Shown: positions 2,516 through 17,819 of the stretch, one piece after another | Layout: every line of letters begins with the position of its first letter | Numbering within the stretch: position 1 is the stretch's first letter | Assembly (NCBI GenBank): GCA_902809825.1 | Contig: LR778114.1 | Coordinates: 62,001-126,000, forward strand | Reading direction: 5' to 3' | From: Candidatus Hydrogenisulfobacillus filiaventi | GTDB lineage: Bacteria; Bacillota; Sulfobacillia; Sulfobacillales; R501 | Length of the DNA: 64,000 nt | Translations under genes and position numbers: made by a program | The notes under the pieces: model-generated | Seen by the model: the letters and a program-made list of their open reading frames with translations, nothing else | Database searches by the model: none | What the model was told of the DNA's origin: nothing

Positions 2516-3037
2516 CCGACATCGCTCCCCTCGCGAATGAGTCGGAATGGATCATACCAGTCCATATCGGGCTGTTGACGTTCTCCCCACGGCTAAAGCC
2601 GGGGGATTCCGACCCTCACGAGCCGGGTTTCCTGCTTCCTCGCGCCACGGCTTCTTAGGGCTAGAGCCGGCCGTCCACCGAAGGGCGCTCCCCAGGCACA
2701 CCGGGCGTGTCCCGCCCTGTATAGTGATCCGCAGCCGTCCCCGGATGGCGGTGCCACCTTTCCCTGGATTGACTGGCCGGGTGGCTGTCCCCCCCCCCCG
2801 ATGATGTCGAAAACGGGCGAACGGTTTTCCCGGTATTCGGGCAGGATCCGTGCGCCTCCGGCACGAATGACGCTTCCGGATGCCAAGCTGGCGAGATGCC
2901 CGGACCCTACTTCAAGGGCAGTGGGGGGCTTCCTTTTTCCCGTGGCCGGCTCCGGCAGCCAGCACATAGAGGTAGCTGGAAGCACGTTCCCTGTCGGGAC
3001 TTCCCGGTTCCGCCTCTCACCGAAGGGAGGGGTTGCC
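2516..3037. other. 522-base intergenic region upstream of cas6 with a hairpin resembling an IS200/IS605 end
   Basis: There is no convincing gene. At 2585-2605 the sequence CCCC-A-CGGC-TAAA-GCCG-GGGG folds into a tight 8-bp hairpin preceded by TTGACGTTCT and followed by GATTCC. This pattern resembles the subterminal hairpins and omega-RNA ends of IS200/IS605-type elements. No tnpA or tnpB ORF is present, so at most this is a relic. A run of C (about 2790-2800) lies further right. The cas promoter should be in this region, but I cannot assign -35 and -10 boxes with confidence. Confidence 0.4.
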
Positions 3038-3778
3038 GTGCGGGTGGCGCTCAAGCTGCATATGCCTGAACCGGAGGATTTGCCCGTTCATTACGCCCAC
3101 TGGGTGCAGGCTGCGGTTTACGGACTCTTCTCTCCGGCTGTGGCGGACGTGGTGCACGAGGAAGGGTTCGTCGCCGAAAGCCGTCGCTACCGGTTGTTTG
3201 CCTTTTCCCGCCTGATGGGGCGGTACCAGCTCAACCGCGCAGCTCGTAGCCTGCGCTTCTTGGGTCCGGTGGTCCTGGTGGTTTCCTCCCCCCTTTCTGC
3301 ACTGGTTCATGATTTTGCTAACGCCATCCTGCGAACGGAAACCCTGCGTATCGGGCCCGTCCGGTTCATTCTCGACAGCGTGACGTTTGCGGAACCCAAG
3401 GTCAATGGGAGCCGCATCGTGGTCCGGACCCTGTCACCGGTCACGGCCTACAGCACCCTCCTGAAAGCGGACGGCAGTCGTTACACTGCCTATTTTGATC
3501 CCCACGAACGCCAGTTTGCAGACCTGGTGGCCCGGAATCTTACCCGCAAGCACATGGCACTCTTCGGCTGCGAGGGACCCTCGCCGGCCGGGTTCCTTTG
3601 GCGGCCGCGCGGCCGGGTGCAGCTGCATGTGGTCCGTTATCAGGACATTGTGGTCAAGGGGTACAGCGGGGTGTTTGAGGTGCAGGGCCCGCCGGAGCTG
3701 CTGCAAATCGGGCTGGATGCCGGTTGGGGCGCCAAGAATGCCCAGGGCTTCGGCCTCACCGAGCTGCTGGCTGGGTGA
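3038..3778 (+). CDS. cas6: CRISPR endoribonuclease Cas6
   Basis: This encodes 246 residues, normal for Cas6, which cleaves pre-crRNA inside each repeat and leaves an 8-nt 5' handle. The GTG at 3038 is chosen because GGGAGGG lies just upstream and translation from there gives the typical MRVALKL first beta-strand; the frame is open further left without homology. The C-terminus has the glycine-rich loop of the family, GWGAKNAQGFG, close to the end. His and Tyr residues in the first third (HYAHWVQAAVYG) are in the place where many Cas6 enzymes keep their catalytic His. It is the first gene of the cas operon, 12 bases before cas8b. Confidence 0.93.
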   Translation: MRVALKLHMPEPEDLPVHYAHWVQAAVYGLFSPAVADVVHEEGFVAESRRYRLFAFSRLMGRYQLNRAARSLRFLGPVVLVVSSPLSALVHDFANAILRTETLRIGPVRFILDSVTFAEPKVNGSRIVVRTLSPVTAYSTLLKADGSRYTAYFDPHERQFADLVARNLTRKHMALFGCEGPSPAGFLWRPRGRVQLHVVRYQDIVVKGYSGVFEVQGPPELLQIGLDAGWGAKNAQGFGLTELLAG

Positions 3779-3790
3779 GGAGGCGCAGCG

Positions 3791-5839
3791 ATGCTGCTGG
3801 AAGGCATGGTCCGCCTGGGGCGGGCCTTGGAACAGGGGGACCTGCCTGCGGAAGAACTGCTGGTGCAATTGGGGGACGGGTTGGTGGCAGCAGCGGCGCA
3901 CTACGGACGTGCCTGGCTGGTGGAAGCCCGTCCGGCGGGGCCGGGCCGCTGGCATACCGCAGTGCTGCCTTCGGCTGAATGGGCCATCGAGGATCCGGAT
4001 GGCCGCCACTGGCATCCTATCCGGCAGCAGGTGGCGGCGGCTCCGGTGGTGTTGGCGGTGGGGGGCAACCGCCAGCAGGCCCAGGGGCGGTATGCGGTAC
4101 CGGCCTACCCGATATGGCCGCCTCAGCAGGAGGAGATGGCCGCCCGGCCCGACGCGGTGATGGGGTTTCTGCGGCCCCGCCTGGAACGGACCTATGGATG
4201 GGACCCGGCAGGTTTTGCAGGTTTGGAGGAGGCGATCGCGGGCGGCCTATCCCAGGCCATGACCGGGGTAGAGGCGGTTAAAGGGCTGGTGGTGCTGCTG
4301 GTGGAAGGGCTTTCCCCCGCCTATGTACTCACGCAGCCCGGCGCGATTCCGCCGGAGGATCGGGTGCGTTTGGCCCCAAGCCGCCTGGAGCCGGGCCGGA
4401 CCTGGACGGCTGACCTGGAGGCCGTGCTCCAGCAGTTCTGGTGGGCGAAGTGGGGGGAAGGTCAGGAGTATGGATTCCGGGAGGACGGGGAGTGTTCGCT
4501 TTGCGGGCGACGGGGCCCGGTGGTCTCCTTCTATGCCAAGGCCTGGCCGTGGTTTTCCTTGCGTTGGGAAGCCCCGTTGCCGCAGGAGCTGCCCCATAAC
4601 CGGCTGGACGAGGGGGTGGGCCTGTGCGAGGCCTGCTATCGTGACCTCACCTTAGGCGGCAATGCCTTTCAGGCGCTAAAGCGGCCGATGCCGCCCCGGC
4701 TAAGTGCCGAGGTTTTCGATGCCGCCCCGGTGCATGACCGGCGGTCGCGTCGGAACCGGGCTCCCCAGATACTGGGCGTGGCCTATGTTCTGCCGCTCCT
4801 TGACAATACCTGGGGGGACCCGGAGCGGGGGGCGGAGGTGGCGCGGGCCCTGCAGCGGCTGGGGGAACGCGAGGGAAAGGGAGCCGGGCGGCACCTGAGT
4901 GACATCTTGGGGCTGGAGGATGCTTTCCTGCCGGAGGACCTGGCCGATGACGCCTTCCGCCTCTACCTGGTTTACTTCAGTGAACAGCAGGCCGACGCCC
5001 AGTTTCATGCTCTGATGGAGGATGTGCTGCCCTCGGTGGTCGGCCGGTTGCAGGATGAAGTCCTGCCAACAGTCCAGGCCTTGGCTGAGACCCTGCAGGT
5101 CCGGTCCGGTCCGCCATCCCTGTTGTGGCTGCTGGCCAAGGCCTATGGACCCCGCTACCTGTGGCAGTCCCTGGAACGGGCCCTGCGGGCGGGGGACCTG
5201 GAAGCCGGTGCCATGGTGGCGCGCGCCGCGCAGGAATTGGCAGCGGCCGCCCGGCTGCTGACTGTGGATGGCCATGCCGGGCCTTTACGTCAACGGGCCC
5301 GCGAATATCAGCTGACCCGGCAGTTTCTTCACGCTTACCGGGCGGCGTTCGGAGCAGGGCAGGCAGGGGAGGATGGGTTGACCATGATTCGGAATTGGCA
5401 GGCATTACAAGCACTGGCCGACGGGGATCCGGGACAGGAACCCGCCACCGACCCGGAGGAACTGGGCTTCGTAGCCGGCCATCTGGTGGCTCGTTTCGGT
5501 CGCCAGTATTTTGCCAGGACCGGCAAGGATTATTTGAAAACGCGCGTGCTGCCGTTCGGTTCCTCCCTTACCCCCACGTTGGTGCATGACCGGGCTATGG
5601 GCCGGATTCAAGAGGTGGCGGAAAAGCTGGATATCCACCTGGTCCGGGTGCTCGTTCACCAGACGGGGAAATGGCTCAATGAATACCGCCGTATGCAGGA
5701 TGACGTAATCCGCCGCAAGGAGGCGTTCCTGGCCGGGTTCTGGTCGGGCTATGCCTTGTATGACCTGGCCCCTTCGGCCACCAAGGAGTCGGGCAGCCAG
5801 GCGGTCCCTCCGGATGATGTGGAGCAGGAGGAGGCGTGA
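3791..5839 (+). CDS. cas8b: Type I-B Cascade large subunit Cas8b (Csh1-like)
   Basis: This encodes 682 residues. Position and size match Cas8b, the subunit that recognises the PAM and helps unwind target DNA. A zinc-finger-like insert is visible: Cys235 and Cys238 (ECSLCG) plus Cys279 and Cys282 (CEACY), as in Csh1/TM1802-type proteins. The rest is divergent, which is normal for Cas8. The ATG follows GAGGAGG. The end overlaps cas7 as GTGA (5836-5839). Subtype I-B is assigned from the whole operon (cas6-cas8b-cas7-cas5-cas3-cas4-cas1-cas2), not from this sequence alone. Confidence 0.88.
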   Translation: MLLEGMVRLGRALEQGDLPAEELLVQLGDGLVAAAAHYGRAWLVEARPAGPGRWHTAVLPSAEWAIEDPDGRHWHPIRQQVAAAPVVLAVGGNRQQAQGRYAVPAYPIWPPQQEEMAARPDAVMGFLRPRLERTYGWDPAGFAGLEEAIAGGLSQAMTGVEAVKGLVVLLVEGLSPAYVLTQPGAIPPEDRVRLAPSRLEPGRTWTADLEAVLQQFWWAKWGEGQEYGFREDGECSLCGRRGPVVSFYAKAWPWFSLRWEAPLPQELPHNRLDEGVGLCEACYRDLTLGGNAFQALKRPMPPRLSAEVFDAAPVHDRRSRRNRAPQILGVAYVLPLLDNTWGDPERGAEVARALQRLGEREGKGAGRHLSDILGLEDAFLPEDLADDAFRLYLVYFSEQQADAQFHALMEDVLPSVVGRLQDEVLPTVQALAETLQVRSGPPSLLWLLAKAYGPRYLWQSLERALRAGDLEAGAMVARAAQELAAAARLLTVDGHAGPLRQRAREYQLTRQFLHAYRAAFGAGQAGEDGLTMIRNWQALQALADGDPGQEPATDPEELGFVAGHLVARFGRQYFARTGKDYLKTRVLPFGSSLTPTLVHDRAMGRIQEVAEKLDIHLVRVLVHQTGKWLNEYRRMQDDVIRRKEAFLAGFWSGYALYDLAPSATKESGSQAVPPDDVEQEEA

Positions 5840-6807
5840 ACAAGATGGGTGTATCGAACGGAGAACTGGTCTTTGTCAAGGCGGTTAAGGATGGGATTCC
5901 TAACCGGGATCCTTTGGCTGATAGTGATGCCCGCCGCCTGTTCGGCGAAGACGATGGCCGGATCTCGTTGTCGGATGTGTCCATCAAACGGGATGTGCGG
6001 GATTATGTGCAGGCCCGCTTTCCCGATGGTGGGGCCGACCGGCGCAACTTTGTGTTCGTGCGGGAGGAGCGTACTGCGGACGGGAAACTTCTGGGACGCA
6101 AAGGGCTGGCGGAACGGACCTTTGCCCAGGCCGGCTTAAGTAAGGCGGATTTGAAAAATCTTACCCAGCGTGAGGCACTGTTACGGCATGCCTTTGATGT
6201 GCGGGTGTTCGGGGCGGTGTACTCGGTAGGGAATGAAGCCTTTCATTTGACCGGTCCGGTCCAGTTCGGGTGGGCCCACTCCCTGCATCCAGTGGAAACC
6301 CGTTACGTCCAGGGAACAGTCGTGATGCCGTCCCAGGAACAAGCAGCCCCCAAGGCGGACGGTGAGGAGGGGAAGGGCAAGAGCCAGGGAACCATCTGGA
6401 CCACCTATGTGGTGCCTTTTGCGGCCTTCGTGATGCCCGGCATTATCAACCATACCCTGGCTGAGATGACCGGTATGGATGAAGCCGATCAGGAACTCCT
6501 GCTGGAAGGGCTGTGGCGCGGGACGCTTTTCCGCCAGGCTCGGGGACGGGGCATCCAGGAACCGTTGTTTCTGCTGCATGTCGAGTACAGCGATCCCTTT
6601 TTCCGGATCGGGTACCTTGAGGAACAGGTGCGGCTCCACCCGCGGCGCGATCCGCCCACCGCTCTGGAGGAGGTGGAACTCGACCTATCCCGGCTGGATC
6701 GGGTGCTGGCGGACAACCGGTCGCGAATCCGCCGAGCCCGCTGGTGGAAAGGTCCAGTGGATTTAACCGGTCCTCTTACCGAGGCGGAGGCCGCAGAGCC
6801 CTTTTAA
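5836..6807 (+). CDS. cas7: Cascade backbone subunit Cas7 (Csh2)
   Basis: This encodes 323 residues, or 320 if the ATG at 5845 is used. Cas7 polymerises along the crRNA spacer. Typical Csh2 features are the N-terminal NGELVFVKAVKDGIPNRDP, then RDYVQARF, the RVFGAVYSVGNE-like strand before HLTGPVQFGWAHSLHPV, and a later YVVPFAAFVMPG. A charged Lys/Glu linker (PKADGEEGKGKSQG) interrupts the middle. The GTG at 5836 overlaps the cas8b stop (GTGA), so translation is coupled. Confidence 0.93.
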   Translation: MNKMGVSNGELVFVKAVKDGIPNRDPLADSDARRLFGEDDGRISLSDVSIKRDVRDYVQARFPDGGADRRNFVFVREERTADGKLLGRKGLAERTFAQAGLSKADLKNLTQREALLRHAFDVRVFGAVYSVGNEAFHLTGPVQFGWAHSLHPVETRYVQGTVVMPSQEQAAPKADGEEGKGKSQGTIWTTYVVPFAAFVMPGIINHTLAEMTGMDEADQELLLEGLWRGTLFRQARGRGIQEPLFLLHVEYSDPFFRIGYLEEQVRLHPRRDPPTALEEVELDLSRLDRVLADNRSRIRRARWWKGPVDLTGPLTEAEAAEPF

Positions 6808-6821
6808 AGGGGGCGGATGCC

Positions 6822-7514
6822 ATGCAGGTGCTGGTTTTTGACCTACGCGCCGAACTGGGGCATTTTCGCCGCCCCGATACCGCCAAAGCCCACGCCTCCT
6901 ATCCCTTCGTAACGCGCACGGCGCTGCGCGGACTGCTGGGTGCAGTCCTGGGCATGGAGCGCTGGCCGGAGGACGGGGCTACGGCCGGCATCCGGCTTTT
7001 GCGGCCGGTGCGTACCCGGGTTCAGCAGTTGTCCCTGCTGGGCGGTTTCGTTTCGGGGAAGGACCAGTTCAACCGCCCGACCACGGTGGAGCTGGTCATC
7101 CGCCCGCATTACCGCATCTACTATGCGGGGCCATTGGCAGAGGAGCTCGGGGCAGCCATCGCCGGCGGCCGCGCCGTCTACCCAACCTATCTCGGTTCCG
7201 CCTTTGCCCTGGTCTTCCCACGCCTAGTGGAATGGGCAGAAGGGGAGGAAGTGGCGCCGGGCCTGGTGACGGTTGGCACCGTCATCCCGGTACCGGCCGT
7301 GCGCGCCTTGCGGCCAATGCCGGGCCGTCAGGTGGCCCGGGCCGGGGGCCTGTTGTATACGGCCCTCGACGGCCGCCGGTTTCGGGGCTCGGTCGACGTT
7401 CTATACGAAGTGGAAGGCCGCCCGCTGCAACTGGAGGTGGATACACGGAACGCCGATCCGCCTGTACGGTTGATCCGGTTGGCGGGGTCGGAGGAGGTGG
7501 TGGTGCTGTGGTGA
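6822..7514 (+). CDS. cas5: Cascade subunit Cas5 (I-B type)
   Basis: This encodes 230 residues. Cas5 caps the 5' handle of the crRNA in Cascade. The N-terminal strand MQVLVFDLRAELGHFRRP and the following SYPFVTRTALRGLLGAVLG are typical of Cas5. The ATG at 6822 is preceded by AAAGGGGG and lies 14 bases after the cas7 stop; the open frame extends into cas7, but homology begins at this ATG. Its TGA overlaps the cas3 start (GTGA, 7511-7514). Confidence 0.9.
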   Translation: MQVLVFDLRAELGHFRRPDTAKAHASYPFVTRTALRGLLGAVLGMERWPEDGATAGIRLLRPVRTRVQQLSLLGGFVSGKDQFNRPTTVELVIRPHYRIYYAGPLAEELGAAIAGGRAVYPTYLGSAFALVFPRLVEWAEGEEVAPGLVTVGTVIPVPAVRALRPMPGRQVARAGGLLYTALDGRRFRGSVDVLYEVEGRPLQLEVDTRNADPPVRLIRLAGSEEVVVLW

Positions 7515-9955
7515 CCGGCCATACTGGCAGCCACGGGGGGATCCCGTTCCGGCTCTGCCGGGCCCGGCCGGACGGCGCCGACGGGCGGCCCGCGCCCTTG
7601 GCTGCGCACCTGGCGGCGGTGGGGCAGGAGGCGGAGGCCCTGGCGCCATCGGGCCAGGGCACCTTTCTGCGTTGGGCCGGATACCTGCACGATCTCGGCA
7701 AAGCTCGCGCCTCCTGGCAGCGTCGCCTTAAGGCCGGGAGCGGGCCGCGGGTCCCGCATGCCTTTTTGGGGGCCTATGTCTTTTTCGCCCTGTTCGCCGG
7801 CATCAGCCTGCCGGCCGCCCAACGCCGTCTGGTGCTTTGGCTTACCCGTGACCTCGCTTGTCATCATGGCCGCCTGGATGACGTGACTGAGGAGCAGGTT
7901 CCCTGGGAAGGTGGTTGGGAGGCGTCAGCCTGGAAAGAGCTGGACTGGGCGGGCATTGTCACCTTCCTGCAGCAGGCCTTTCCGGATGGACCCGCCCTGC
8001 CGGACAGCGCGGCCACTTTAGCAGCCCGCGAGACCGCATTGCGGCGGACCTGGCGGAATTGGGTGATGACCCTGCCCTCCCCCCCGGATCCCTTGCGGGA
8101 ATCCCTGCCCTGGTCCGCGGCCCGGTTGGTGGCGGCCGACCGCTTTCATGCCGGGGAAGTTTCCCCCATGCCGGGGATGACGCCGGAACAGGCGGCCGGG
8201 GCGCTCAGCCGCCTGCGCCGCTACCTGGCGGAACGGGCTGCGACCATGACGGCGCAAGGAGCCGGGGCCATGGCGGAACGGCGGTCGCGCTTGCAGGAGA
8301 CCGTCCGGGAGGGCTGGCGGCAGGCGGATGGTCCCCTCTACCTGTTGCAGGCCCCCACCGGGTCCGGCAAGACCCTCCTGGCCCTGGAACTGGCCCTGGA
8401 ACGGATTGCCCGCTCCTCGGAGCCGCGCCGTCTCATCTATCTGGCCCCCTTCATCAATTTGGTTACCGACGTGGCTCAGGTTGTGCGGGACGCCACCGGC
8501 CAGGAGGTGCTGGAACATCACCACCTGGCCTTACCTGATGACCCTTCGGAACCGGTGAAGGGCGGGGCTCCAGCGGTGCGTCCCCGGGTCGAAACCCCCG
8601 ACGGCGCCCTTTTGGTGATGGATGCCTGGCAGGCGCCGGTGGTCGTGTCCACCTTCAACCAGTTCTTTCGCGCCCTACTTCCTGCCCGGGCCCAGCAGGC
8701 CATGCGGATGGTAGCCCTGGAGAAGGCGCTGGTGGTCGTGGATGAACCGCAGACCCTGGCGGCCCCGGTGTGGGCCCCGCTGGTGCAGGGATTGGAGCTG
8801 TTGGCGGCTCAGGCGGGGGCCGAGATCCTGCTTATGAGTGCGACCCTGCCCCCCTTTCCAGGAGTCCGCTTGTCGCGGCCGCCGGCGGTACTGGCGGAGC
8901 CGCCGCCTCCGGAGGCATGGCCTGCCCGGTATCGTCTGACGGCGCAGGAGGGCGCCTGGAGCGTGGAGACGGTGGCCCGGGAAGCGGTGGCTGCGGCCCG
9001 CCGTGAAGGCGCCACCGCTGTCATCCTCAACACCGTCGCCGATGCCGTGACGGTTTATGAGGCTATCAGCGCAGATCCGGGTGTGCAGGCGGTGAACCTG
9101 CATGGTGCCATGCATCCCTTGCACAAAGCGCATCAGATCCGCCGTGTCCGGGAAATGCTCGGGGACGGGACGGGCCAGCCTGAAAGGCCTTTAGTGGTTG
9201 TATCCACTCAGGTGATGGAAGCGGGCGTCGATCTTAATTTCCGGAGCCTTTTCCGCGCGCGCGCGGTGCTATCATCGATGGTTCAGGCTGCGGGCCGCGC
9301 CAACCGCCACGGGCAGGCCGGAAACCCGGCTGATGTGCGGGTGTTTGATTTTGTCCGGGAAGACGGCTCGGATTCCCGGGTTTGGGTTTACCGCAACCGG
9401 GTGTACCGGGAGGAAACCGATCGTTGGTTGCCCCCCGGGAACGCGTGGACGGAAATCGAGCTGGTGACGCGTCTAGCAAGCTATTACCGGAGTGTCTTCG
9501 ACCGCAGTCCCCAGACCGCCTTGCTGGATAGATTCCGCAAGGCAGCTTCAGGCCAATGGTCCGAGCTGGCCGGCCTGGAGCCGTTTGAGCAGGTGCCGTA
9601 TCACCGTCCAGTCTTTGTTCCGGTGGCAGGGCCGGAGCAGGACCCCCTACAATGGCTGGACGAGCCCACACAAGGCCTGATCGACTATTTTGCGATTCCC
9701 AGCCTCGAGGCAATTTACGACCGCCTTTATGACCGCGGTTTTCTGGGCGGTCTGGGACCCGTCGATCGGAGGCGGTTTCTTAACCTGATGGGGAAATTCA
9801 CGGTCAGCATGCCGGTCAAGACCCTTCAAATATTAACCGAATGGAATCCGGAGCGGGAGGTGCAGCGCCTGGTGGATGTGCGGGCTTATTCGCCCACGAC
9901 CGGCTTAGGGCGGTGGGTGCGCAAGGAGGATCAGGGCGAGGCGATTTTCCTATGA
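7511..9955 (+). CDS. cas3: CRISPR helicase-nuclease Cas3 (HD plus SF2 helicase)
   Basis: This encodes 814 residues. The N-terminal HD nuclease domain shows LHDLGKA and the downstream CHHGRLDD metal-binding His residues. The SF2 helicase follows: Walker A APTGSGKTLL, motif II VVDEPQTL (DEPQ), motif III MSATLP, then the motif V region QVMEAGVDLNF and motif VI QAAGRANRHG. After Cascade binds a target, Cas3 nicks and degrades the DNA. The GTG at 7511 is chosen for its GTGA overlap with cas5 and a GGAGGAGG upstream; a GTG one codon earlier is equally possible. All catalytic motifs look intact. Confidence 0.95.
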   Translation: MTGHTGSHGGIPFRLCRARPDGADGRPAPLAAHLAAVGQEAEALAPSGQGTFLRWAGYLHDLGKARASWQRRLKAGSGPRVPHAFLGAYVFFALFAGISLPAAQRRLVLWLTRDLACHHGRLDDVTEEQVPWEGGWEASAWKELDWAGIVTFLQQAFPDGPALPDSAATLAARETALRRTWRNWVMTLPSPPDPLRESLPWSAARLVAADRFHAGEVSPMPGMTPEQAAGALSRLRRYLAERAATMTAQGAGAMAERRSRLQETVREGWRQADGPLYLLQAPTGSGKTLLALELALERIARSSEPRRLIYLAPFINLVTDVAQVVRDATGQEVLEHHHLALPDDPSEPVKGGAPAVRPRVETPDGALLVMDAWQAPVVVSTFNQFFRALLPARAQQAMRMVALEKALVVVDEPQTLAAPVWAPLVQGLELLAAQAGAEILLMSATLPPFPGVRLSRPPAVLAEPPPPEAWPARYRLTAQEGAWSVETVAREAVAAARREGATAVILNTVADAVTVYEAISADPGVQAVNLHGAMHPLHKAHQIRRVREMLGDGTGQPERPLVVVSTQVMEAGVDLNFRSLFRARAVLSSMVQAAGRANRHGQAGNPADVRVFDFVREDGSDSRVWVYRNRVYREETDRWLPPGNAWTEIELVTRLASYYRSVFDRSPQTALLDRFRKAASGQWSELAGLEPFEQVPYHRPVFVPVAGPEQDPLQWLDEPTQGLIDYFAIPSLEAIYDRLYDRGFLGGLGPVDRRRFLNLMGKFTVSMPVKTLQILTEWNPEREVQRLVDVRAYSPTTGLGRWVRKEDQGEAIFL

Positions 9956-10476
9956 GCAACATAGCCGGGGAGGGACCGTCTGAGGTGCCCGTGGGCGGGA
10001 CCCTCATCCGGGATTACACCATTTGTCCCAGGCAGGTATGGTTGGGGGTACACGCCATCTCCCCGGATGAGGATGATGCCAATCTGGTAGTCGGGCGGTT
10101 TCTCCATGCCGAGGCGGAGTCTCATCAAAGCCTTCGGCCTGTGGTGGGCCACAGCCGTTTTGACGCTGTCGTTGGTCGGGAGGGCGAACTGGTGGTGGTA
10201 GAAATTAAAAAAAGTGCCCGGGCCCTGGAGGCAGCCCGAATGCAGCTGGCGTTCTATCTCCTGGAGCTGCAGCGCCGCGGAGTCCACGCCCGCGGGGAAA
10301 TCCGTGTTCCGGACGAACACAAACGGATCCCGCTGACCCTGTCCGACGATCTGATCGCCCAGGTGGAGAAGATTGAGCAAGCCGTGCGCACTTTGGCAGA
10401 GGAGGCGGTTCCACCCCCTGCCCGTCGTGTTTCCTGGTGCAGCCGCTGTGCCTACCATGATTTCTGTTGGAGCTGA
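9952..10476 (+). CDS. cas4: CRISPR exonuclease Cas4
   Basis: This encodes 174 residues. Cas4 trims prespacers and selects for the PAM during adaptation. It has the RecB-like nuclease core (FDAVVGREGELVVVEIKKS) and four cysteines for an Fe-S cluster: one near the N-terminus (YTICPRQVWLG) and three at the C-terminus (CSRCAYHDFC). The ATG at 9952 overlaps the cas3 stop (ATGA). Its G+C content is like that of the interference genes, in contrast to cas1 just downstream. Confidence 0.93.
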   Translation: MSNIAGEGPSEVPVGGTLIRDYTICPRQVWLGVHAISPDEDDANLVVGRFLHAEAESHQSLRPVVGHSRFDAVVGREGELVVVEIKKSARALEAARMQLAFYLLELQRRGVHARGEIRVPDEHKRIPLTLSDDLIAQVEKIEQAVRTLAEEAVPPPARRVSWCSRCAYHDFCWS

Positions 10477-10492
10477 AGCCAAAGGAGCGTCT

Positions 10493-11485
10493 ATGGAACG
10501 GACGATTCATATTTTTTCCTCCGGCGTGCTACGGCGCCATGGCGACACCATCGCATTCGAAGGCAAGGATGGTACCCGCTATCTGCCGGTTGAGGCCGTG
10601 GCGGAAATAATGGTTCATGGAGAAGTCGATCTCAACAAACGGTTTTTGGAATTTCTCTCAGAAAAAGAAATTCCACTACATTATTTCAACCACTTTGGAA
10701 ATTATATGGGTACCTTTTACCCACATGAGCACTACAATTCGGGTTTTATGATTCTGAAGCAGGCTGAGTATTATCTTGACCCGGAAAAGCGTCTCCAGTT
10801 AGCCCGGCGGTTTGTATCGGGGGCCTCTAGGAATTTGCTGCGCGTGCTCCGCTATTATCGGAGCCGTGGAAAAGATCTGGATGCCCGGATTGGAAGCATG
10901 GAGGATTTGACCGCGAAGCTGGAGACATGTGCCACTATCCCGGAGTTGATGGCAATAGAAGGGAATCTTCGGGAAATGTATTACAACGCCTTCGACACGA
11001 TTTTGGATCACCCGGCATGGACATTTGATCGCCGTAGCCGGCGTCCTCCCGAAAACTCTCTTAATTCGCTGATTAGTTTTGGAAATAGCCTCCTTTATGC
11101 CACTTCGCTGAGTGAGATCTATAAAACGCATCTGGATCCCCGGATCGGGTATCTGCATACAACGAACTGGCGCAGATTTTCTTTGAACCTTGACATTTCC
11201 GAGATTTTCAAGCCCGTGTTGGTTGATCGGCTGATATTTACGATGGTTGGCAAGGGCATGATTCGGCCATCCGACTTTCACAGGGAAAGTGGGGGTCTTT
11301 TTCTAACAGAGGCTGCACGGCGAAGGTTTGTGGAAGAATACGAGAACCGGCTCCGTACCGTTATTCGGCATCGGCGCAATGGAAGGCTCGTTTCGTACCG
11401 TCGATTGATCCGACTTGATTTATATCGATTAGAAAAACATCTGATTGGGGAAGAGCCATATGATCCGTTTGTCGCTGCTTGGTAA
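10493..11485 (+). CDS. cas1: CRISPR integrase Cas1
   Basis: This encodes 330 residues. Cas1 catalyses spacer integration with Cas2. The metal-binding residues are visible: Glu156 in MAIEGNLREMYY, His222 in GYLHTTNWRRFSL and an acidic cluster around Asp234/Glu237 in NLDISEIFKP. The start MERTIHIFSSGVLRRHGDT is typical of I-B Cas1. The ATG has AAAGGAG upstream. Base composition changes here: 10621-10680 is only about 35 percent G+C, against about two thirds in cas4 and cas3, pointing to a different origin for the adaptation genes. Confidence 0.96.
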   Translation: MERTIHIFSSGVLRRHGDTIAFEGKDGTRYLPVEAVAEIMVHGEVDLNKRFLEFLSEKEIPLHYFNHFGNYMGTFYPHEHYNSGFMILKQAEYYLDPEKRLQLARRFVSGASRNLLRVLRYYRSRGKDLDARIGSMEDLTAKLETCATIPELMAIEGNLREMYYNAFDTILDHPAWTFDRRSRRPPENSLNSLISFGNSLLYATSLSEIYKTHLDPRIGYLHTTNWRRFSLNLDISEIFKPVLVDRLIFTMVGKGMIRPSDFHRESGGLFLTEAARRRFVEEYENRLRTVIRHRRNGRLVSYRRLIRLDLYRLEKHLIGEEPYDPFVAAW

Positions 11486-11506: not shown

Positions 11507-11770
11507 GTGTTCGTTATTGTGGTTTATGATGCTGGCGTTAAGAGGGATCCCAAGGTGCTTAAAGTGTGCAGGCGTTATCTGTCCTGGGTACAAAGGTCGG
11601 TATTTGAGGGAGAGTTGTCGGATGGGAAGCTGCGCCTGCTAAAAGAAGAGCTGTCAGCTGTCCTGGATCCCCACAAAGACTCCGTTATCCTGTATTTGTT
11701 TCAGTCTCTCCGGTATTCTCGCCGGGAAACCCTTGGACCAGCCTCGGACCCGAATGGGGTAATTTTGTAG
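11507..11770 (+). CDS. cas2: CRISPR adaptation protein Cas2
   Basis: This encodes 87 residues, the usual Cas2 length. The first strand MFVIVVYDAGVKRDPKVLK carries the conserved Asp, and SVFEGELSDGKLRLLKEEL matches the central helix region; KDSVILYLFQ is the last conserved strand. The start is GTG at 11507, with AGGAAGGGG upstream. Like cas1 it is less GC-rich than its neighbours. The degraded end of the array begins about 12 bases after its stop. Confidence 0.95.
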   Translation: MFVIVVYDAGVKRDPKVLKVCRRYLSWVQRSVFEGELSDGKLRLLKEELSAVLDPHKDSVILYLFQSLRYSRRETLGPASDPNGVIL

Positions 11771-11802: not shown

Positions 11803-14800
11803 GTTTCCAACCCTCATAGGTAGGCTACGAACGGTCCCGCCAAGCCCGGGCGAGGTACCGTCGAGCCTGTTTCAATTCCTCATAGGTAGGCTACGAACGG
11901 TCGAGTTGGTGGTAAAAGCCGCCAACGCCATCCGCGTTTCAATTCCTCATAGGTAGGCTACGAACCCCCAGTCCCGCCACGCCATGGTGCCGCGCAGCCC
12001 GGGTTTCAATTCCTCATAGGTAGGCTACGAACGCCCCTGGTCATCCATCCCGCCCGTCTGCCGCATCTCGTTTCAATTCCTCATAGGTAGGCTACGAACC
12101 TGCTGGGGCGCTAAGCGCCTCAGCCCCTCACCAGTTTCAATTCCTCATAGGTAGGCTACGAACAGCGAACGAAGCTTTTTCACGCGCCAAGGCCGGACAG
12201 TTTCAATTCCTCATAGGTAGGCTACGAACTCGTCACCATCGGCTGGGTGATGACCATCGTGAACGCAGTTTCAATTCCTCATAGGTAGGCTACGAACCCC
12301 TCGTCAAGTGCTAGCCGCTTATCCCTGGAACTTTGTTTCAATTCCTCATAGGTAGGCTACGAACCGCCTGTGGGCGGCACCATGATCGGGATGTGTTGGG
12401 TTTCAATTCCTCATAGGTAGGCTACGAACACCAAACCCGCTACCGGGTTCCGGTGCGGGGTTTCATCGTTTCAATTCCTCATAGGTAGGCTACGAACGGC
12501 GGCCCCCCCATGCTAAATAGGGGGGTGGAACGTAGTTTCAATTCCTCATAGGTAGGCTACGAACCCGCCATCGCTGGGAGGAGATCCGCGTTGGGGACGG
12601 TTTCAATTCCTCATAGGTAGGCTACGAACGCGCGCCCGGCCGCGTGGTACCGCTCGTAGGCCGGTTTCAATTCCTCATAGGTAGGCTACGAACCGGGCGC
12701 GGAGGCCCAGGCCGCCAGGGTCGCCCAGGGTTTCAATTCCTCATAGGTAGGCTACGAACGGCCCAAACGGTCCCGTCCAGTTCGTCCCTATACGTTTCAA
12801 TTCCTCATAGGTAGGCTACGAACAAGGAAAGGTGCCGCCCACATGCGTCCGCCACCGCCGGTTTCAATTCCTCATAGGTAGGCTACGGACAGTCGCGGCC
12901 CAGAAGGATTTCGTAGATGTCGGTGCGTTTCAATTCCTCATAGGTAGGCTACGAACCGCCACCTTGGGGCTGGTAGCCCCAGACGAGCTTAGTTTCAATT
13001 CCTCATAGGTAGGCTACGAACAGGCCGCACCGCAGTAAGCTTTCGTCAAAGGAAAGGGTTTCAATTCCTCATAGGTAGGCTACGAACCCTGGGGCAGGCG
13101 CGGCGCAGGTGCCCCATAGGAGCGTTTCAATTCCTCATAGGTAGGCTACGAACCGGCGGACTGTCCCACACCGGGTTCGCCCGGCTCATGTTTCAATTCC
13201 TCATAGGTAGGCTACGAACTGCCAGATCGACTGGCTGGTGGTCGTGCTCTGGCCGTTTCAATTCCTCATAGGTAGGCTACGAACTTGCGCCAGGGCCGTC
13301 ATGGCCCGGGCCTGGGCCTGTTTCAATTCCTCATAGGTAGGCTACGAACCTCGCCGAGGGGTTGCCGCTGGGTGAAGAGCGCCCAGTTTCAATTCCTCAT
13401 AGGTAGGCTACGAACGCCTGGCCGATCAGGAACGCGCCCGCCAGGAGGGGTTTCAATTCCTCATAGGTAGGCTACGAACCCCAGTCCGCCTGCTGGTACA
13501 AGCCGCTGCGCCCGGTTTCAATTCCTCATAGGTAGGCTACGAACGGTGACGGTGTGCACCGCCCGGTCTCCGGGGTAAAGTTTCAATTCCTCATAGGTAG
13601 GCTACGAACCAGCGGGCCGGACGGGGGCACGGCCAGATGGTACAGGGTTTCAATTCCTCATAGGTAGGCTACGAACACCGTGGGCGTCCGCACGATCAAG
13701 GTAACGTATGAGTTTCAATTCCTCATAGGTAGGCTACGAACCCCCTCGTTGGCGGCCCCCACCAGGGCCACCCGGTAGTTTCAATTCCTCATAGGTAGGC
13801 TACGAACGGGGTGCAGCTTGCGGGTTCCACCGCGCTCTGGGAGTTTCAATTCCTCATAGGTAGGCTACGAACCACCCTCGCACCGTCGAGAAGATCGTGA
13901 CCCGGGGTTTCAATTCCTCATAGGTAGGCTACGAACCCCGCACGAAAGGAGAGAACGCAATGACTAGTCTCAGTTTCAATTCCTCATAGGTAGGCTACGA
14001 ACTGGTGGTGCTTGGCCCCCTCTTGGAGGGCCCCGCAGGTTTCAATTCCTCATAGGTAGGCTACGAACGGCCCTGCGGGCGTGGGCGCTAGCCCACGGCT
14101 CGGAGGTTTCAATTCCTCATAGGTAGGCTACGAACGGTCCCAGCCCATATCCCATCCATGGAGATAGCTAGTTTCAATTCCTCATAGGTAGGCTACGAAC
14201 CCGCACCTCGGCAAGCAACTGTGGTACCGCCTCAGTTTCAATTCCTCATAGGTAGGCTACGAACAGTGCCCGACGTGCGGGTCCCTCCCCCCGCGACGGG
14301 TTTCAATTCCTCATAGGTAGGCTACGAACCCCTTTGGGGACCGCCGGAGGGGGACCCCGCGCTGGGTTTCAATTCCTCATAGGTAGGCTACGAACCAGCA
14401 CGAAGAACCCAGCCGCGACCACCACGAGGGTTTCAATTCCTCATAGGTAGGCTACGAACCTCAAAGCCGCACCGGTCACAAATGGCCTCCTTGAGTTTCA
14501 ATTCCTCATAGGTAGGCTACGAACGTTAGTTAACTTGACCCCCCACGCCCCCCACCTGGTTTCAATTCCTCATAGGTAGGCTACGAACGGTCCGCCACAC
14601 GGACCTGGTACCGGGGCTTGTAGGGGTTTCAATTCCTCATAGGTAGGCTACGAACTACCTCGCCCGGGTCTGGCGGGATCAGGGGCTCGACGTTTCAATA
14701 CCTCATAGGTAGGCTACGAACGGCAGGCCCCAGCCCAACGGGACGTGTACATCGAAGTTTCAATTCCTCATAGGTAGGCTACGAACGACAGGATCCGGAT

Positions 14801-17627
14801 CATCCGATCCCGGTGATCGTCAGTTTCAATTCCTCATAGGTAGGCTACGAACCTCCTTCCTCAGGGGCCGCTCCCAGCACGCAGGGCGTTTCAATTCCTC
14901 ATAGGTAGGCTACGAACCCTCGACGGATTGCTCCGCTACCCGAAGGGCTTCAAAGTTTCAATTCCTCATAGGTAGGCTACGAACTGTCCCGGGCCACCGC
15001 CTTGATGAACGTGTCCGCCAGTTTCAATTCCTCATAGGTAGGCTACGAACCGGTCGATCGCCCGGTCCTCCCCCGCCGGCGCTTGGTTTCAATTCCTCAT
15101 AGGTAGGCTACGAACGCAAGACATCCGATCTCCGGCTCACGGTCGAAACGGGTTTCAATTCCTCATAGGTAGGCTACGAACCCTCGACGGATTGCTCCGC
15201 TACCCGAAGGGCTTCAAAGTTTCAATTCCTCATAGGTAGGCTACGAACTGTCCCGGGCCACCGCCTTGATGAACGTGTCCGCCAGTTTCAATTCCTCATA
15301 GGTAGGCTACGAACCGGTCGATCGCCCGGTCCTCCCCCGCCGGCGCTTGGTTTCAATTCCTCATAGGTAGGCTACGAACGCAAGACATCCGATCTCCGGC
15401 TCACGGTCGAAACGGGTTTCAATTCCTCATAGGTAGGCTACGAACGCGCTTCGCGCCGCGACCTTCGGTCGCGCCCTGGACAGTTTCAATTCCTCATAGG
15501 TAGGCTACGAACCGTCCGGTAAAGATTACTCTCGACGGTTAATGCTCCGAGTTTCAATTCCTCATAGGTAGGCTACGAACGCGTCTCGGTGGCCGTGACC
15601 GCCGTGCCGCTTGCCAGTTTCAATTCCTCATAGGTAGGCTACGAACTGGCGGCCTGGGCGGACCAGAACGGGCTGGAGCACCGTGTTTCAATTCCTCATA
15701 GGTAGGCTACGAACCCCAATCAAAGCCGGGCTTTGGCGGCAGAGGTCTTCGTTTCAATTCCTCATAGGTAGGCTACGAACCGAAGGGCCGGTGCCAAAAG
15801 GAGGAACGACGATGGGTTTCAATTCCTCATAGGTAGGCTACGAACATTGTGGAGCATTCCCACCATCGACCGGTATTGGGCGTTTCAATTCCTCATAGGT
15901 AGGCTACGAACGCGGGTACCCAATACGCGGTCATCGTCGAGGAAATGAGTTTCAATTCCTCATAGGTAGGCTACGAACGTGGCCGGGGGACAACCCGCAT
16001 AGCACAGCTAGGGGGTTTCAATTCCTCATAGGTAGGCTACGAACGCCGGAGGGGTTCGCGACATTGGACGACCTGATGCGCGTTTCAATTCCTCATAGGT
16101 AGGCTACGAACACGATGGTCATCACCCCGCCGATGGTGACGATGCGTTTCAATTCCTCATAGGTAGGCTACGAACGGTGGCGGCCGTGGCCTTCGATCCG
16201 GATGCCCAAGGTTTCAATTCCTCATAGGTAGGCTACGAACCTATGAGCGAATGCGCGAACGCGAGATAGTGCGCGGGGTTTCAATTCCTCATAGGTAGGC
16301 TACGAACCTGAGTGTGACGGTGACGCCTTATGACTCTACCATGTTTCAATTCCTCATAGGTAGGCTACGAACGGCCTCCAGCGCCGCCAAACTGACGCCG
16401 TACCGGGGTTTCAATTCCTCATAGGTAGGCTACGAACCCGCCACCTCGATGGCCGTCACGTCTACCACCTCACCGTTTCAATTCCTCATAGGTAGGCTAC
16501 GAACGGTTATGCCGCCTACTATCACCGAGCGCTGGCTGGTAGTTTCAATTCCTCATAGGTAGGCTACGAACGTGGTCACCCGCGACGCGGCCCAACGGGG
16601 GCTGTTCGTTTCAATTCCTCATAGGTAGGCTACGAACCGCCGGGTGGGATCCTCGATGGACACACGATGGGCAGTTTCAATTCCTCATAGGTAGGCTACG
16701 AACGGGGGGAAGCGCCACATCGTTGCTCAGGGCGCCCCGGTTTCAATTCCTCATAGGTAGGCTACGAACGGTGCACCCTTCGGGGCCGGTAACCGTGGCC
16801 AAGAGTTTCAATTCCTCATAGGTAGGCTACGAACATTGGCCGGAAGGGCTGGTGATGCTGGCGAACAAGGGTTTCAATTCCTCATAGGTAGGCTACGAAC
16901 TCGTCCCGGTAGCCCGGGAACGCTTCCTGCGCCCAGTTTCAATTCCTCATAGGTAGGCTACGAACTTGACCCTGCCGAGTGGGGATACGCTCACCGTCAC
17001 GTTTCAATTCCTCATAGGTAGGCTACGAACGGGAGACCCCAGGCCCGGTGGCCATACTGAGCCAAGTTTCAATTCCTCATAGGTAGGCTACGAACCGTCG
17101 ACGCGGGCGCCCTGACCTTTTTCCGCAATCTGGTTTCAATTCCTCATAGGTAGGCTACGAACGAAAACGGCCATTGGCACGCGGTTGCCCGATTGGGGTT
17201 TCAATTCCTCATAGGTAGGCTACGAACGCTGCCATGCCTTCGCCGCCTTCGCCGCCCCTCCGGTCGTTTCAATTCCTCATAGGTAGGCTACGAACTCACC
17301 GCGTGGCGCGCGGGACTGGTAGTGGTCGCGGGTTTCAATTCCTCATAGGTAGGCTACGAACAGGACCAGGCGCTCGACCGTGCCTGGGAGACCCTGCGTG
17401 TTTCAATTCCTCATAGGTAGGCTACGAACTTGTTTCAGGTCCGGGTCATCCAGCAGGGGATGGCCGTTTCAATTCCTCATAGGTAGGCTACGAACGGTGG
17501 TGGCACTGGCCCTGCTGGCCTTGGCCGCTAGGTTTCAATTCCTCATAGGTAGGCTACGAACGTAACCGTCCGTCCGCCTCGTGCGCCCCGCCGATTCGTT
17601 TCAATTCCTCATAGGTAGGCTACGAAC
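11803..17627 (-). CRISPR. Type I-B CRISPR array, 89 repeats and 88 spacers, probably transcribed leftward
   Basis: On the + strand the 30-base repeat begins GTTTCAATTCCTCATAGG and ends TAGGCTACGAAC. By hand I count 89 repeats with spacers of 34-38 bases. The first repeat (11803-11832) has three mismatches, the repeat at 12861 has A to G near its end, and the repeat at 14692 has T to A; the rest look identical. The reverse complement ends in ATTGAAAC, the usual 8-nt crRNA handle of I-A, I-B and type III repeats. Decay at the cas2 end marks it as the trailer. Both observations say that transcription runs right to left, with the leader at 17628-17819. Confidence 0.97.
14888..15415. repeat. 264-base tandem duplication of four repeat-spacer units in the array
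   Basis: Units starting at 14888, 14955, 15021 and 15086 are repeated in the same order at 15152, 15219, 15285 and 15350. The four spacers begin CCTCGACGGATTG, TGTCCCGGGCC, CGGTCGATCGCC and GCAAGACATCC, and the second copy appears identical. Recombination between repeats, or slippage, would generate this. An assembly error is less likely because flanking spacers are unique. Confidence 0.95.
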
Positions 17628-17819
17628 CCATAATAGCTCTGCAGGAAGCCGTTTTTCAAGATCACCAGGAAATGGAACGCGAAGTCGAGAAGAGCATGGT
17701 AAGAGGCGGTAGTTAGGTCTAAAACCGGTTCCGGGTTTTGGGACCCGATCGTCGATCCCCGGGGGTTTTGGGCCGATCAGAGATCGACGACTTATTACGG
17801 GATACGAAATATTTATGGA
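17628..17819 (-). promoter_or_regulatory. Probable CRISPR leader
   Basis: These 192 bases lie between the last perfect repeat and the stop of the oxidase gene. The decamer GGGTTTTGGG occurs at 17733-17742 and 17763-17772, 30 bases apart, and each copy is followed by a CCGATC-type hexamer. An AT-rich patch (about 17790-17820) could hold the leftward promoter; I cannot define -35/-10 boxes reliably. No ORF is supported here. Leader identity is inferred from repeat polarity and repeat conservation. Confidence 0.65.

Follow-up and report, generated by a model that had tools for sequence, protein, structure and literature searches.

Two overlapping spacers of opposite orientation in a type I-B CRISPR array of Candidatus Hydrogenisulfobacillus filiaventi

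Spacers 7 and 66 of CRISPR array A are very probably independent captures by one type I-B system (probability of roughly 85%). They would have been taken at different times and from opposite strands, the source being nearly the same 41-bp stretch of two invader variants that belong to one lineage. Spacer 7 and the reverse complement of spacer 66 are identical at 30 of 31 bases, with a single mismatch (T/G). The invader, the target gene, and the PAMs are the inferred parts of this explanation. The array lies in the analysed window, a 64 kb stretch of the Candidatus Hydrogenisulfobacillus filiaventi genome, and the features are listed in Table 1.

The type I-B locus and its arrays

The genes between positions 2801 and 11770 apparently form a complete type I-B set, with cas6, cas8b, cas7, cas5, cas3, cas4, cas1, and cas2 in this order. 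The signature gene cas8b is accompanied by cas3, cas5, cas7, and cas6, and the adaptation genes cas1, cas2, and cas4 adjoin an array with the ATTGAAAC handle, as expected for type I-B. Pfam and NCBIfam searches with cas8b were without a match. The true start of cas3 is probably later than the start of its ORF, because the latter overlaps cas5. The cas1 gene was the single match in the genome and is thus its sole cas1.

Table 1. Positions of CRISPR-Cas features. Plain numbers are positions in the window; the prefix G000:C1 marks positions outside this numbering.
Feature	Position	Strand	Characteristics
cas6	2801..3778	+	TIGR01877, PF01881
cas8b	3791..5839	+	PADLOC Cas8b, E 2e-135
cas7 (Csh2-like)	5836..6807	+	PF05107, TIGR02590
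cas5 (Cas5b-like)	6744..7514	+	TIGR02592, PF09704
cas3 (HD nuclease + helicase)	7232..9955	+	TIGR01587, TIGR01596, PADLOC Cas3b E 8.8e-193
cas4	9841..10476	+	TIGR00372, PF01930
cas1, type I-B	10373..11485	+	TIGR03641, E 1.2e-131
cas2	11507..11770	+	PADLOC Cas2b, E 2.3e-29
CRISPR array A	11803..17627	-	89 repeats, GTTCGTAGCCTACCTATGAGGAATTGAAAC on crRNA strand; 88 spacers
Degenerate terminal repeat	11803..11832	-	3 changes; old end of array A
Spacer 7	12230..12267	- (crRNA strand)	38 nt; older pair member; window letters TCGTCACCATCGGCTGGGTGATGACCATCGTGAACGCA
Spacer 66	16112..16145	- (crRNA strand)	34 nt; younger pair member; reverse complement GCATCGTCACCATCGGCGGGGTGATGACCATCGT
Leader	17628..17794	-	blocks conserved with array B leader
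CRISPR array B	G000:C1:1569215-1574410		repeat same as in array A; 78 spacers
III-B locus	G000:C1:345000-362000		Cas10, Cmr4, Cmr6, with Csx1 and CARF-RelE proteins
III-D locus	G000:C1:289000-303000		Cas10d-like, Csx10/Cas5- and Cas7-like

Repeats of array A are 30 bp long and its spacers 34-38 nt, with a spacer G+C content of 68%. The minus-strand repeat terminates in ATTGAAAC, the usual crRNA handle, in agreement with the published motif (PMC8482600). The sequence past position 17627 is in part conserved with the array B leader, and both arrays carry degenerate repeats at the non-leader end. From the conserved leaders and degenerate end repeats it follows that crRNAs are made from the minus strand and that spacer 88 is the newest; by this polarity, spacer 66 is younger than spacer 7. 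In both leaders, the inverted motif TCGTCGATC ... GATCGACGA was found, possibly a site of integration or transcription. Array A also contains an exact tandem duplication of four repeat-spacer units (264 bp, positions 14888-15415, spacers 48-51 equal to 52-55), which may be an effect of intra-array recombination or of the assembly.

The spacer pair

Both quoted sub-strings from the preliminary description, which reported 31 shared bases with one mismatch between spacers about 59 units apart, were found in the pair, and the parse of the array places the two spacers exactly 59 units apart, with 58 other acquisitions between them. Their ends are shifted by 3 and 7 nt. Together they span 41 bp of the target, GCATCGTCACCATCGGC(G/T)GGGTGATGACCATCGTGAACGCA, with bases 1-34 in spacer 66 and bases 4-41, on the opposite strand, in spacer 7.

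In an all-against-all comparison of spacers in both orientations, the pair scored 28, and the runner-up among non-duplicated pairs within array A scored 17. Among the long inverted repeats listed for the window, it is the one with the highest complementarity (97% over 31 nt, listed as 90% over 39 nt when repeat bases are included), and the remaining listed pairs are all at or below 83%. Neither spacer contains a self-palindrome, so an internal hairpin as the cause of the match is ruled out. Chance similarity of two unrelated spacers has nothing in its favour beyond the G+C-rich composition (68%) and is of negligible probability: it is refuted by 20 composition-shuffled spacer sets, in which the best scores were only 11-13, and samples of host DNA gave no comparable overlap.

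As expected of recurrent acquisition, the sequences overlap and their boundaries differ. Because the lengths, both ends, one base, and the orientation are different, the pair represents two separate captures and not a copied or flipped unit. That spacer 66 is an inverted or copied piece of the array, or a product of misassembly, is therefore very improbable, even with the exactly duplicated four-unit block at 14888-15415 in the same array. Each spacer has bases missing from the other, and both are surrounded by repeats in normal orientation. An assembly copy is also unlikely, given the different neighbours of the two spacers and a genome in a single contig.

Under independent capture, the two protospacers would face each other with their PAM ends directed outward, 41 bp apart. 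As the protospacers converge, each PAM would lie outside the known 41 bp and is unreadable from the partner spacer. PAM inference from other overlapping spacers (A58/B9 and A11/B75, described below) gave inconsistent flanks and was dropped.

Candidate target of the pair

BLAST of both spacers against phage and plasmid collections, the check suggested in the preliminary description, gave no convincing match and no protospacer with a PAM. In the own genome and 200 related genomes, a search for the protospacer allowing up to three mismatches returned only the array itself, and no exact protospacer was present in IMG/VR. Exact and degenerate pattern scans of IMG/VR with the whole shared site and with its peptide in two frames found nothing. 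Complete arrays A and B were without a match when compared with phages by BLAST. Their plasmid matches (65-74% identity) were spaced like repeats and were taken for other CRISPR arrays. When array A was searched as DNA against 398 genomes of the phylum, the matches were again array-like and no usable protospacer emerged.

The 20-base core GGCKGGGTGATGACCATCGT was found in six IMG/VR viral contigs, and the reversed core pattern, used as a control, had 0 matches there. In all six contigs the core occupies the same codons of a P22-type major coat gene, on the opposite strand. Such coat genes abound in IMG/VR, and related contigs do not count as independent evidence. Coat identity was given by PF11651 in the three contigs tested, with an E value of 2.7e-74 or better, and by phrog_283. 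The coat peptide at the core is (A/G)TTMVITPP(M/I)I(T/S), and in the same frame spacers 66 and 7 read TMVITPPMVTM and AFTMVITQPMVT, respectively. The best contigs match spacer 66 without a break over 24 nt and at 29 of 34 positions overall. In the best-matching coat homologs, the coding sequence continues with AGG, which for spacer 66 would correspond to a CCT PAM as read from these homologs only; CCT is one of the PAMs listed for type I-B (PMC8482600).

On the basis of this shared core and frame, the target is probably a tailed-phage gene for the P22-type major coat protein. The spacers resemble P22-type coat genes (PF11651, phrog_283) in an exact core of 20-24 nt with the common frame TMVITPPM, and differ from them beyond the core, where the match drops to about half of the bases. 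The coat match is complete over these 20-24 nt only and is not full-length for either spacer. Spacer 7 encodes F and Q at positions that are mostly T and P in the sampled coat proteins, and a wider degenerate scan with the coat-frame pattern had no matches in IMG/VR. The presumed target itself is not among the matching contigs, which are its homologs.

Other candidates were also considered. A match to the tape-measure gene of Microbacterium phage Warren is in a plausible frame, but it covers 24 of 27 bases with an E value of 0.6, and it was set aside because it is weaker than the coat-gene match with its exact run of 24 nt. Another match, in a faecal phage scaffold that carries no annotation, codes on its other strand for NEVMTIQQ, an unrelated peptide. 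Related genomes have weakly P22-coat-like genes, but with only distant similarity and no sequence resembling the site.

The crRNA of spacer 7 or of spacer 66 would guide Cas8b-Cas3 onto double-stranded DNA. If the coat reading is right, only the spacer 66 crRNA would be complementary to the mRNA as well.

An invader with two inverted copies of the site, such as the ends of a mobile element, could have donated one spacer from each copy. This source is improbable, as the likely location in a coat gene speaks against a repeated element, and the identical or near-identical spacers shared between the arrays (see below) need no repeats in the invader.

Probable recurrent sampling of invaders

When arrays A and B were compared (spacers numbered in parsed order with the letter of their array) and the duplicated block was left out, seven spacer pairs matched along the entire overlap. 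Four are in the same orientation: A83 and B68 are identical (38/38), A84/B11 have the same ends and agree at 35 of 36 bases, and A58/B9 (24/27) and A11/B75 (16/17) are shifted. The other three are in opposite orientation, namely A7/A66 (30/31), A1/A44 (22/25), and A50/A85 (17/19). Pairs A83/B68, A84/B11, and A7/A66 are strong; the remaining four are weak, and there may be chance or motif-level similarity among them. Exact IMG/VR scans for the A83/B68 spacer and for the A84/B11 core found nothing. Close to the array A leader, A83 and A84 lie side by side, and both have counterparts in array B. All three opposite-orientation pairs are within array A and converge with PAM ends outward, and all four same-orientation pairs are between the arrays. 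This split, expected by chance in 1 of 35 cases, was noticed afterwards in small numbers and is a curiosity only.

No overlapping pair was found in ten draws of host DNA samples of equal size. A second null gave about 0.15 overlapping pairs per draw, with same-orientation scores possibly inflated by a padding flaw from which the ten-draw null is free. Random capture at PAM sites was simulated under the assumption of one PAM per 16 positions. With a pool of 50-200 kb, the simulation approximates the observed mix of same-start, shifted, and opposite overlaps, and at least one opposite-strand overlap of at least 28 nt appeared in 47-86% of the runs. The pair therefore needs recurring related invaders and no special mechanism. 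Random resampling of a small recurring pool of invaders is enough, and priming is not needed.

The preliminary description explained the pair by independent captures from opposite strands, perhaps through primed adaptation. The first part holds, given the offset ends, the different lengths, the single-base difference, and the other recurrent pairs; the second is not supported, and the simulation produces such pairs without priming. In a primed scenario, crRNA 7 would have bound an escape variant imperfectly and recruited Cas3 with the adaptation complex, and the opposite strand at this place would have supplied spacer 66. The younger age of spacer 66 and its one different base agree with this, and in I-F and I-B systems the spacers gained by priming do come from both strands close to the primed site (PMC5059440). 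Against it, 58 acquisitions separate the two spacers, no target was found to which the neighbours of spacer 66 could be mapped, and such pairs are already predicted by random sampling. Priming is thus considered unlikely.

Independent capture has known parallels. As in primed or interference-driven adaptation of I-F and I-B systems, where both strands near an existing target yield spacers (PMC5059440), both strands of one site are represented here; those systems acquire many spacers per episode, whereas here there is one pair with 58 acquisitions between its members. Candidatus Methanomassiliicoccus intestinalis has a type I-B array in which two spacers are near-identical, with a single mismatch, and another pair overlaps by 19 nt in opposite orientation (PMC6336856). 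Here, the opposite-orientation overlap reaches 31 nt in a bacterial host, and no matching virus identifies the target. The pair of spacers 7 and 66 is a fresh case of an already published kind, with a longer overlap.

The 14-17 kb read around each of the III-B and III-D loci showed no CRISPR-like array, and sharing of type I-B arrays by type III effectors is reported as common (PMC8482600). With a single Cas1 and two type III loci in the genome, the type III effectors may rely on the type I-B arrays. That re-acquisition from the opposite strand was favoured for this reason, with I-B arrays possibly feeding III-B and III-D effectors too, is improbable. If true, a second capture from the other strand would let the cell target the mRNA of a site in addition to its DNA. 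If the sharing occurs and the coat reading holds, spacer 66, and not spacer 7, would direct cleavage of the coat mRNA.

The pair is a tidy illustration and not a surprise, as it is expected from repeated sampling of a few related phages. Even with no phage available, it is direct evidence of encounters, well separated in time, between this lineage and variants of the same invader. From the seven overlapping pairs, the recurring invader pool can be roughly sized at about 50-200 kb, and the coat-gene lead points to where the phage should be sought.
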